Part shown: in pieces, positions 28,480-55,899 of the stretch
Layout of the letters: each line of letters begins with the position of its first letter
Numbering within the stretch: position 1 is the first letter of the stretch
Virus record (IMG/VR): IMGVR_UViG_3300008113_000215
Location: 1 to 64,000 of that record
DNA from: a virus
Length of the DNA: 64,000 bases
Reading direction: 5' to 3' (one strand)
The notes under the pieces: model-generated
Databases searched by the model: none
The model's input: the letters and a program-made list of their open reading frames with translations, nothing else
Told to the model about the DNA's origin: nothing
Program-made: the position numbers and the translations under genes

Positions 28480-29277
28480 TTATTTAATTGTGGTTTGGGA
28501 AAGAGTTGTAAACCCTTTTAGAATGGCTGAATTATCAGGTGGGACTACTCCTAATTCGGTTTTTAATTTGATCCCTCCCTGCATTAGATTTCCTCTAAAC
28601 CTTTCTGTCGAGAGATCTAGTTGTGGTAAATATGTCTCAGCATTAACGTTGATCGATAAGGTAATTCCTTCTCCTCCAGTACTTCCATAGCTAAAATTAA
28701 AAACGTTTGGAGCTTTATCTGGCAATTGATCAGCCAATGATGCTTGAACTGGAACTCTAAATCCGTTATATTCAAAATAATAAATAAAGTTTTTGAATAG
28801 AACCTCTATAGTTCTAGCCTGAATTTTTAGAGCATCCGTCGTAGTATCAACCTTAATTTTAAGTGAAAATGTTGCATCAATTGGTATTGGTGACAGATAA
28901 GCAGAATAAGCTTTTATCTCAGATCCTCCAGATTCCTGAACGATTTCTTTCTCATATGTACCCCTCACATACTTATTTGTTGATGATGATGTTGTGATCC
29001 TAGAACTTTGATATTCTAAAATTCCCCTTGGAATAACATCATAGTTACCCTCTGCAAATAGAGGATTTCCGTCACAGTCACCATAATTCAAATAAAAATC
29101 TTGTAAAAATGATTCATCTCCTGCTAAAGAATAAAAGAAGGGGATATAGATCTCTTGGATTTTTCCGGAACTAGTTGTCTGATAAAACGTAATTTTTTCA
29201 TTTAGGGATTTTAGCATCCCAATAATTAATCCTCTGAAAAAAACGTCATCGCTATTAAATTTATCTAAAAAATTCAT
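28480..29277 (-). CDS. 15: Tail sheath stabiliser/completion protein (T4 gp15-like)
   Basis: 265 residues, matching T4 gp15 length (272). Family traits: the early helix FFRGLIIGMLKSLNEKITFYQTTSSGKIQEIYIPFFYSLAGDESFLQDFY (the IQRI-VPL-YGPKEK region of gp15), VIPRGILEYQSSRITT, then SAYLSPIPIDATFSLKIKVDTTTDALKIQARTIEVLF. gp15 caps the tail tube and joins head and tail. It is adjacent to the neck and terminase genes, as in T4. Confidence 0.8.
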   Translation of the reverse strand: MNFLDKFNSDDVFFRGLIIGMLKSLNEKITFYQTTSSGKIQEIYIPFFYSLAGDESFLQDFYLNYGDCDGNPLFAEGNYDVIPRGILEYQSSRITTSSSTNKYVRGTYEKEIVQESGGSEIKAYSAYLSPIPIDATFSLKIKVDTTTDALKIQARTIEVLFKNFIYYFEYNGFRVPVQASLADQLPDKAPNVFNFSYGSTGGEGITLSINVNAETYLPQLDLSTERFRGNLMQGGIKLKTELGVVPPDNSAILKGFTTLSQTTIK

Positions 29278-29600
29278 GCTAATTCTATATTTCTACTGGT
29301 CTCCACAGGAACAGTTTTAAGTGGTATATCTATGTATTTGAACTTTATATACTGGTTTTTCTGGTTTCTATACTTGGGATGTTCAAAAGACTCTGTTTTG
29401 TATACTTCATCCGTTATTTGATAAACGTCTAAAGTAAATTCGTCTCTTAAATATTTTTTACCTCTCTCAGCAGAAACTGGATTTTCGAATTTATAGACAT
29501 GAAACTCTATAATCGGTAGTGGAGATAGGTATTTCTTGACACTTTTAGAAACGAAGAAATACGTGAACCTCTCAAGGTCATTTCTTGATGTGATAGCCAT
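29274..29600 (-). CDS. Hypothetical protein next to gp15 (108 aa)
   Basis: A compact mixed alpha/beta protein (ERFTYFFVSKSVKKYLSPLPIIEFHVYKFENP, KYLRDEFTLDVYQITDEVYK). It overlaps gp15 by four bases. From location it may be a neck or tail-completion component (gp13 or gp3 role), but no family is recognised. A promoter-like ATATATAGG is just upstream. Confidence 0.65.
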   Translation of the reverse strand: MAITSRNDLERFTYFFVSKSVKKYLSPLPIIEFHVYKFENPVSAERGKKYLRDEFTLDVYQITDEVYKTESFEHPKYRNQKNQYIKFKYIDIPLKTVPVETSRNIELA

Positions 29601-29603
29601 GTT

Positions 29604-29615
29604 CCTATATATTTG
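29604..29615 (-). promoter_or_regulatory. ATATATA promoter-like element
   Basis: CAAATATATAGG on the minus strand, 4-15 nt upstream of the ATG at 29600; close to the recurrent element. Confidence 0.4.
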
Positions 29616-29621
29616 AAAGGA

Positions 29622-31286
29622 CTATACCTTCTCTATTAAAAGATCAGAGAAGTTGTTTCTTTTCTGAATTTCTATCTTGTAATCGAAAATTTCGGTAGGC
29701 ATTGGAGCGTGATTGATCACAAAAACATTAAGTCCGTGGTCATCACAAACTTTTCTGAGGGTGTTTAGAATCGTGTAAACCCCGTCCGGATCTACAGAAC
29801 TAAAAATTTCATCCAAAAATAGAAGATTTATGCTACTGAATCTTATTTTCATCAGCTTTATAACGGAAAGAAGTACAGCAAAATCAACTTTCTTCATTTC
29901 TCCGGTGCTTAAAGTTGAAATTGATATATCCTCACCCATATGGATGATAGAAGCATTAAAATCCTCGTCAAAGGTAACTGTATATGAAAGATGCAGGGAT
30001 TGCATTAATTCCGCTATATGGTTATTTAAAGAAGGAAGAATGGTTTTAAGCGCTAGTTGCTTGATTCCTTTTTCCCCTAGGATTTCCTCTATCTTCTTAA
30101 GCCACTCACTTTTTTTATCCTCCTTAGATTTTTCTTCGGTAAATCCCTGGATATTGTTTCTTGTCTCCTCTGCTATTTTTTTAAGAGAATCTATTCCATC
30201 CGAGGAAGCACCGGATTTTAGTTTTTTTAGTTCTTCTTTTGCAGAGTTTATGTTGACTATAATCTTGTTACCTTTGGTGTTTATTTCCTCTCTTTCCTTT
30301 CTTAGATTTGCTTCTTTGGAAGAGCAATCATCATAATTTTTTTGAGCATCTAGAATTTCTTTTTTAAAATCATCGATCTGTTTAAGTAGTCCATCTTTTA
30401 TTCCCTGATGAAAAATACTAGAAAGATCTGAAGCGCATGTCGGGCATTTATCGTTATTATAAAGTCTCATCTTTTCTTCCACTCCTCTTAACGATCCCTT
30501 AGACTCTGTTAATATCTTGTATGCTTTTCTGGTTTCCCCCTGGAGATCTGATTCTAATCTCGAAAATTCAGAGGTTTTTGTTTTGTGTATTTCTAATAGC
30601 TGGTTGTATTTGGAAATTTTATCCTCCAAATCACTTATCTTATCCTTAGAAACCTCTAGAATCTTTTTAGAAAGAACATCCATTTCTTCCTGTGTTCTGC
30701 TAAGTGTTTTAGAAAGAGAATCAACTTCCCCCGAAATCCTGATCAAATTTTCTCGAATGGATTTAGTTTCTTCCTTCAGAAGATCCCTCATTTCGTTGAT
30801 CACATAAAATCCGAATATTTTATCAATGATGGATTTTTTATCCGACGGAGACATTTTAAGGAAGCTCTTAAAATCATTAATTGATAAAGAAATTGTATTG
30901 TTAAAAACGTAGTTAGGAATTTGGATTATATCATCGGTTAAATAGTCCTGTACTGACCTAGAACCAGCCTTATCATATAATGATCCATTAACATATAGGT
31001 TAAAAATTGAGGGATCTAAACCTCTCTCAACTGAATATTCCTCCCCATTTACTAAGAAAGTTATTTTCACCCAAGCATTTCCGTTAATTCTATTAGGAAT
31101 ATCCTTTAGTTTTTTCCCGTCGAGTTTACCATAAAGACCGAAAGTTATAACGTCGGATATTGTGGATTTACCTGCTCCGTTTTCTCCTACTACTAAATAT
31201 AATCCAGGGTTATCCCCGAAAGTTAGAGATTGTATTTTATTTCCATAGGAAGCAAAATTTCTCCATTCTATTTTTGATAATCTCAT
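29622..31286 (-). CDS. 46: Recombination endonuclease subunit gp46 (SbcC/Rad50-like)
   Basis: 554 residues (T4 gp46 is 560). An SMC-type ATPase: Walker A GENGAGKSTISD near residue 36, coiled coils between about 170 and 390 around the zinc hook CPTC (residues about 282-285), the signature region SISTLSTGEMKKVDFA, and Walker B LLFLDEIFSSVD with the D-loop. It forms a complex with the gp47 nuclease that resects DNA ends for recombination-dependent replication. Its start overlaps the gp47 C-terminal ORF stop (ATGA). Confidence 0.95.
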   Translation of the reverse strand: MRLSKIEWRNFASYGNKIQSLTFGDNPGLYLVVGENGAGKSTISDVITFGLYGKLDGKKLKDIPNRINGNAWVKITFLVNGEEYSVERGLDPSIFNLYVNGSLYDKAGSRSVQDYLTDDIIQIPNYVFNNTISLSINDFKSFLKMSPSDKKSIIDKIFGFYVINEMRDLLKEETKSIRENLIRISGEVDSLSKTLSRTQEEMDVLSKKILEVSKDKISDLEDKISKYNQLLEIHKTKTSEFSRLESDLQGETRKAYKILTESKGSLRGVEEKMRLYNNDKCPTCASDLSSIFHQGIKDGLLKQIDDFKKEILDAQKNYDDCSSKEANLRKEREEINTKGNKIIVNINSAKEELKKLKSGASSDGIDSLKKIAEETRNNIQGFTEEKSKEDKKSEWLKKIEEILGEKGIKQLALKTILPSLNNHIAELMQSLHLSYTVTFDEDFNASIIHMGEDISISTLSTGEMKKVDFAVLLSVIKLMKIRFSSINLLFLDEIFSSVDPDGVYTILNTLRKVCDDHGLNVFVINHAPMPTEIFDYKIEIQKRNNFSDLLIEKV

Positions 31287-55604: not shown

Positions 55605-55607
55605 AAT

Positions 55608-55662
55608 TTGGTGATCTCCTCGGGGTCGCGGCCACCTCTCCCGTTGAGAAGATCTAGACCAA
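55608..55662 (-). ncRNA. Long GC-rich hairpin between tRNA genes
   Basis: TTGGT + CTA bulge + GATCTTCTC pairs with GAGGAGATC + ACCAA, a 14-bp stem with a 24-nt GC-rich loop. It sits in a stretch between tRNA-Arg and tRNA-Leu that is clearly more GC-rich than the phage average. It is not a tRNA by its arms. Candidate small RNA or processing signal. Confidence 0.4.
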
Positions 55663-55701
55663 GAACGACGCAAAATGTGGCTCGACGCTGTTTTTGGTTT
55701 G

Positions 55702-55787: not shown

Positions 55788-55793
55788 AAAAGG

Positions 55794-55899
55794 TGCCGGT
55801 GGAAGGGTTGTTTACCTTCACGGTGTCCTTTTCGGTTACACCCCCACTCTAGATCAGGGACGTCTATGACTGGCCAAGTCATCATTCCGCCACACCGGC
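55794..55899 (-). tRNA. Aberrant class II tRNA-like element
   Basis: Perfect 7-bp acceptor (GCCGGTG/CACCGGC) and a Leu-like D-arm start (TGGCGGAAT...TAGACG), but with an inserted hairpin (ATGAC-TTGGCCA-GTCAT) in the D loop. The anticodon arm is irregular (CCCTG-ATCTAGAG-TGGGG). There is a long variable arm (GGTGT/ACACC), and the T-like arm (GAAGG/CCTTC) has an 8-nt loop lacking TTCRA. Anticodon uncertain: CTA or TAG within TCTAGA, or GGC if the inserted hairpin acts as the anticodon arm. It may be a non-functional relic. Confidence 0.4.

Follow-up and report, generated by a model that had tools for sequence, protein, structure and literature searches.

What is the role of a tRNA-like gene that escapes tRNA finders and sits inside the tRNA array of a large phage? 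The question is raised by the window, that is, the whole stretch of 64,000 nucleotides that we analyzed, which is part of a 69.5-kb virus record (IMGVR_UViG_3300008113_000215). A preliminary description made from the sequence alone had noted here an aberrant tRNA-like gene of Leu type whose D loop carries an extra hairpin, and a direct read of the sequence bore this out: the 7-bp acceptor stem is perfect; the insert ATGAC-TTGGCCA-GTCAT has the loop as quoted, on a stem of 5 perfect base pairs, or 6 if T-A closes; TCTAGA occupies the expected anticodon loop; a long variable arm is present; and the T loop, of 8 nt, lacks TTCRA. The 20 normal tRNAs said to surround it correspond to exactly 20 ARAGORN calls in the window, and the element itself was missed by ARAGORN. 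The place first given, 55794-55899, was right, and its 3' end was 2 nt short, as an ACC tail that extends to 55792 is invariant in relatives (Table 1). On the minus strand the element reads, from 55899 downward, GCCGGTG TG GCG GAATG [ATGAC TTGGCCA GTCAT] AGA CGT, continues with CCCTGA TCTAGA GTGGG, then GGTGTAACCGAAAAGGACACC, then GT, and ends at 55792 with GAAGG TAAACAAC CCTTC CACCGGC ACC. It is packed between tRNA-Ser(GGA) and tRNA-Leu(UAA), with 4-nt spacers.

Table 1. Features of the tRNA-like element in window coordinates, listed from 5' to 3' after the whole gene.
Feature	Position	Strand	Evidence and remarks
Whole tRNA-like RNA gene, 108 nt	55792..55899	(-)	Direct read; covariance-model match to 27 distinct relatives
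Acceptor stem, 5' strand GCCGGTG	55893..55899	(-)	Pairs with 55795-55801; G-C/A-U and U-A/A-U covariation, 100% paired
D-loop insert hairpin ATGAC-TTGGCCA-GTCAT	55866..55882	(-)	Stem covaries at three pairs; absent only in L177
Hexamer TGGCCA in insert loop, first proposed kissing loop	55871..55876	(-)	Relatives have TGTACA, GTAC, ATTCGAAT, ACGCGT or a GACG tetraloop
Anticodon-arm equivalent, CCC/GGG stem, irregular apical loop	55843..55859	(-)	
Self-complementary hexamer TCTAGA, second proposed kissing loop	55848..55853	(-)	Relatives, covariation, tree simulation, 0/254 normal tRNAs
Long variable arm GGTGTAACCGAAAAGGACACC	55822..55842	(-)	Covarying stem; CCGAAA loop nearly invariant
T arm GAAGG-TAAACAAC-CCTTC, 8-nt non-canonical loop	55802..55819	(-)	Stem covaries at three pairs; TANNCARN loop in all copies
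Acceptor stem, 3' strand CACCGGC	55795..55801	(-)	Covariation in alignment A3
3' tail ACC	55792..55794	(-)	Invariant, 28/28 copies; ordinary tRNAs of the same arrays mostly N-C-A

An identical element occurs on a 219-kb contig (L003; records and copies are cited by L numbers) and on two further contigs, and shuffled versions of the element fold more weakly than the real one (z -2.39). In the covariance search that had been proposed, the Rfam tRNA model (RF00005) matched the neighbors in the stretch but not, at E<=1, the element, and no other Rfam family matches it at that threshold either. The element's sequence alone was then used to build a covariance model (R1), which was run over 50 records of relatives, picked by their tail sheath and gp46-like proteins. 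It returned the identical contig and, with E values of 1e-18 to 1e-21, four diverged phages, finding the element even where identity in the gp46-like protein is about 77%. Further copies were obtained with DNA patterns over IMG/VR, each confirmed by R1 or R2. The search of other phages for the same insert, also proposed at the outset, thus recovered the element in 27 distinct sequences, 93 to 134 nt long, with the insert hairpin absent only in L177. There are tRNA genes near by on every contig carrying a copy, in arrays that are ordered differently. Since shuffles fold worse and diverged relatives retain the structure, the element goes beyond chance, and the aberrant tRNA-like feature at 55792-55899 is real.

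A second pass, with R2 over 50 records, yielded one known copy and otherwise only weak matches, so the element is confined to part of the window's phage group and to other large phages, although absence is weak evidence because many records are fragments. The weak R2 matches L191-L194 are ordinary tRNA-Leu. Chance matches of the last pattern (L179, L184, L186 and L189) have neither a covariance-model score nor tRNAs, and the same holds for the sole pattern match in bacterial genomes, L173 (a Lentisphaerae MAG), likewise taken as chance. A manA match (RF01745) over the L176 copy, at 23.5 bits against a cut-off of 55.2, is subthreshold and was also put down to chance. Searching INPHARED by blastn with three diverse copies as queries gave short chance matches only. 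No convincing copy was found in Flavobacterium phage MaF61, Lak-C1 and two huge uncultured phages, where the single match, of 27.8 bits, falls within the ordinary tRNA-Leu score range. Among named isolates, the closest tail sheath is that of a Flavobacterium phage (38% identity), which suggests that the host of the window phage belongs to the Bacteroidota.

The structure of the family is supported by covariation. In A3, an alignment of 15 sequences, 96.7% of the cells of the proposed helices are paired, with double changes at 9 pairs; this percentage was reached by 0 of 500 shuffles, and sliding the partner strand out of register destroyed the signal. The acceptor stem, for instance, occurs as GCCGGTG/CACCGGC, GCCAGAG/CTCTGGC and GCCGGAG/CTCCGGC. 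As in an elongator tRNA, the 7-bp acceptor stem and the T stem are kept, with 100% and 92% of cells paired, respectively, and with covariation. The most conserved parts are the acceptor stem, TGGCGGAA, AGACG and the variable-arm loop. Among the copies computed (L185-L190 were left out, and the first base of L178, absent at the contig end, was filled in by hand), the cloverleaf-constrained fold lies at most about 3.5 kcal/mol from the free minimum, except in L178.

Other hallmarks of an elongator tRNA are missing. The D-loop GG (18-19) and the T-loop TTCRA are absent from all copies, and the anticodon arm, which should have 5 bp below a 7-nt loop containing U33, has a stem of 2-3 bp. With an 8-nt UANNCARN T loop and no GG in the D loop, the family has lost the normal tRNA elbow. 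These same loops, together with the short anticodon stem and the constant 3' ACC, argue that the family, conserved in tRNA arrays of large uncultured phages, is probably non-decoding. As for its origin, R1 scores the neighboring tRNA-Leu(UAA) at 31.6 bits, which makes tRNA-Leu the likely ancestor. With the tRNA-Leu of the same phages the element has in common the acceptor, the D-arm edges TG GCG GAA ... AGACG, the long variable arm and the GT linker, and it differs from them in the missing GG and TTCRA, in its irregular anticodon arm and in ending with ACC, not NCA.

A point absent from the preliminary description is that both loops of the element, the one at the anticodon position and the one in the insert, are self-complementary. 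At the anticodon position most copies carry UCUAGA, with CCUAGG in L170, ACUAGU in L172 and L177, UUCGAA in L174, L175, L178, L180 and L183, and UCCGGA in L176; all five hexamers are self-complementary. The exceptions are, first, L168, where ACUAGG retains the core CUAG only, and second, L185/L187, where the hexamer is lost to an ACUUU-GUAA-AAAGU hairpin and the insert has no obvious palindrome. The hexamer palindrome is paired in 44 of 45 cells (97.8%) over 15 distinct arms, with 6 double changes, 0 single changes and 1 mismatch; this pairing was reached by 0/500 shuffles and shifted registers were much lower, statistics that are somewhat inflated because the register was chosen with the palindrome known. 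When independent evolution was simulated on a family tree built without the hexamer, four palindromic derived types plus at most one other arose in 0 of 20000 runs at each of six rates. A palindrome at positions 33-38 is found in 0 of 254 unique normal tRNAs of these loci. The loop has therefore been kept self-complementary by compensatory change, as is looked for in a palindromic kissing loop.

The insert varies from 3 nt in L177, which has no hairpin, to 44 nt in L176. Its loop is UGGCCA in the window, UGUACA in L162, L166 and L169-L171, aaGUACaa in L168, L174, L175, L178, L180 and L183, AUUCGAAU in the long-insert group, UUCGAA in L181, and ACGCGU in L176, there inside a loop larger than the predicted minimum. 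In L182/L188 it is GACG, and GACG tetraloops of MoMuSV SL2 self-kiss via two base pairs (PMC7357161). Under a strict criterion, a 6-nt palindrome has to lie within the predicted loop and its closing pair; 12 of 20 hairpin inserts have one against 1.8 expected, related copies not being independent.

The explanation that we favor, and consider reasonably likely, is that the element encodes a non-coding RNA derived from tRNA-Leu that homodimerizes or oligomerizes by kissing loops. First, a phage tRNA-Leu gene would have turned into an RNA that no longer decodes, and that may still be excised from the array like its neighbors by tRNA processing enzymes, as suggested by the tight packing and the intact acceptor and T stem. 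Second, the anticodon loop would have become a self-complementary hexamer, and the D loop would have gained a hairpin, usually also capped by a self-complementary loop. Third, two copies would kiss loop to loop, and two such loops per molecule would allow two-point closed dimers, rings or chains displaying many tRNA-Leu-like acceptor/T-arm ends. Self-complementary loops kept by compensatory change point to homotypic kissing, since pairing with a different RNA could do without self-complementarity, and the sequence changes would not be tolerated at a fixed protein site. No cis partner for the hexamer was found by eye. Copies of this RNA thus probably stick together into dimers or larger assemblies. 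The hexamer duplexes are weak (-5.2 kcal/mol for UCUAGA and -4.1 kcal/mol for UUCGAA), which is why the pairing may need two contacts or a protein. Whether the family amounts to a phage RNA class in which one homotypic docking loop replaces the anticodon and a second one sits in the D arm, yielding a self-assembling RNA-only particle or filament that presents tRNA-like ends during infection, we regard as evenly balanced. It is tempting to speculate that such a multivalent, tRNA-like assembly acts as a scaffold or sponge for a host factor that binds tRNA, a guess that we put forward as doubtful.

Among other explanations, the one that survives best, although unlikely, is a monomeric tRNA mimic, acting as decoy or inhibitor of a host tRNA-binding enzyme or of an anticodon-cutting defense nuclease, with the palindromes contributing loop shape only. 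The conserved acceptor stem, TGGCGGAA, AGACG and variable-arm loop are what a protein-binding tRNA-like surface would be expected to show. However, a loop cut by a nuclease would have no need to stay self-complementary while switching among five hexamers. Of the four options in the preliminary description, the nuclease decoy alone keeps some likelihood, but nothing indicates a fixed target for it since the loop sequence is not constant. Somewhat less probable still is that a dimeric protein recognizes the palindromes as DNA or RNA sites, or that their outer pair merely closes a tetraloop, and that no RNA-RNA kissing takes place. The first and last bases of the hexamer can indeed close a 4-nt loop in some arms. 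Its middle pair, however, joins adjacent bases and is impossible within one molecule, and these central two bases also covary, from UA to CG; the varied hexamers, in turn, do not fit one fixed protein site.

An unusual working tRNA, such as a suppressor reading UAG with leucine or serine, is very improbable. The loop can be read as U33-CUA-G37-A38 in most copies, and the acceptor and variable arm are Leu-like; three of the five hexamers, those with CUA, UCG or CCG, could pass as anticodon loops. The other hexamers, however, break U33 and position 38 together. U33, present in 253 of the 254 normal tRNAs, is replaced by C or A in L168, L170, L172 and L177. Elsewhere the triplet has become UCG or CCG, and the arm of L185/L187 ends in the GUAA tetraloop. 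To this are added the 2-3 bp stem, the D-loop GG and T-loop TTC missing in all copies, and the failure of the Rfam tRNA model to match. The check for UAG codons that accompanied the suppressor idea also went against it, as TAG is an ordinary stop in the window phage (10 of 74 ORFs). On these substitutions, the 'anticodon' loop is not an anticodon, and the suggested tRNA with two anticodon arms fails similarly, neither loop behaving as an anticodon. A decaying tRNA-Leu pseudogene would account for the lack of canonical loops and the escape from tRNA finders, but is hardly credible given the compensatory changes in the acceptor, insert, variable and T stems, the single-stranded motifs invariant over 27 sequences and the presence in differently ordered arrays, which, barring an artefact of the alignment behind the covariation, refute the decay first considered.

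The analysis also provided some separate observations. A second uncharacterized structured RNA lies at window positions 55605-55700 (-), between tRNA-Leu(UAA) and tRNA-Arg(UCU); it is conserved in L155-L158, has two long hairpins with compensatory changes at 10 pairs and a possible pseudoknot GCCAC/GTGGC (GCCGG/CCGGC in relatives), and gives no Rfam match at E<=1. At 1501-1644 of L195, a 175-kb gp46 relative, lies another aberrant tRNA-like gene, also Leu-like and uncalled by ARAGORN, with a normal TTCGAAT T loop, GGTAGAC and a long D-loop insert containing TCTAGA. Phage-encoded tmRNA genes, with tag peptides ending in YAVAA, lie near the arrays of L162, L170, L171, L174, L176 and L180. The genes of the ordinary tRNAs in these arrays end for the most part in N73-C-A rather than CCA (about 203/256). 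In the window, the gp46/SbcC-like ORF stops at TAG and its frame stays open for 115 more codons to the next gene (29277-29622 (-)), this extension probably being a separate small gene.

RNA homo-oligomers are rare in nature. In a tRNA-sized, easily synthesized member, with contact loops that covariation reveals, self-assembly and what it is for could be tested directly. More generally, the tRNA arrays of large phages probably hold non-decoding RNAs that standard tRNA finders overlook. A search of Rfam 15 and of open-access papers turned up no account of this family, subscription literature lying outside the search.

Two groups of phage RNAs invite comparison. First, GOLLD and ROOL are structured phage or prophage non-coding RNAs, often near tRNA islands, that form homo-oligomers (PMC12286853), a precedent for the assembly proposed here. 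The likeness lies in the location and in self-assembly, the latter only inferred from the loops for the tRNA-like RNA; GOLLD and ROOL are hundreds of nt long and of unrelated sequence, whereas the tRNA-like RNA has about 93-134 nt, a tRNA cloverleaf and no Rfam match. The GOLLD model (RF02032) matches neither the element nor anything else in the 69.5-kb record. GOLLD was found in 14 of 31 records searched, many of them fragments, at 267-317 bits (L171 3713-4125, L185 117-531 and 12 other records also carrying the tRNA-like RNA), and is absent from the window's, the 219-kb and the 245-kb records; with co-occurrence only partial, a role as GOLLD partner is unsupported. Second, the T4 stable RNAs C (species 1, 139 nt) and D (species 2, 119 nt) lie inside a phage tRNA cluster (PMC9697503) and are similar as small RNAs of unknown function encoded there. 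T4 RNA C keeps a canonical GGTTCGAATCC T arm, which our family lacks, and an R2 cmsearch of the T4 tRNA region with filters off left rnaC and rnaD unscored, its best match being 25.4 bits on tRNA-Leu. By these tests, the tRNA-like RNA is detectably related to none of these, and resembles GOLLD/ROOL in its predicted behavior and T4 RNA C/D in kind. Self-complementary loops of 2-6 nt are likewise used by HIV-1 DIS, by the GACG of MoMuSV SL2 and by a mutant human mitochondrial tRNA-Leu(UUR), which dimerizes through a palindrome in its D stem-loop (PMC7357161). Those precedents are retroviral genome elements or a disease mutation, whereas here a free tRNA-like RNA appears to have kept its palindrome by compensatory evolution.
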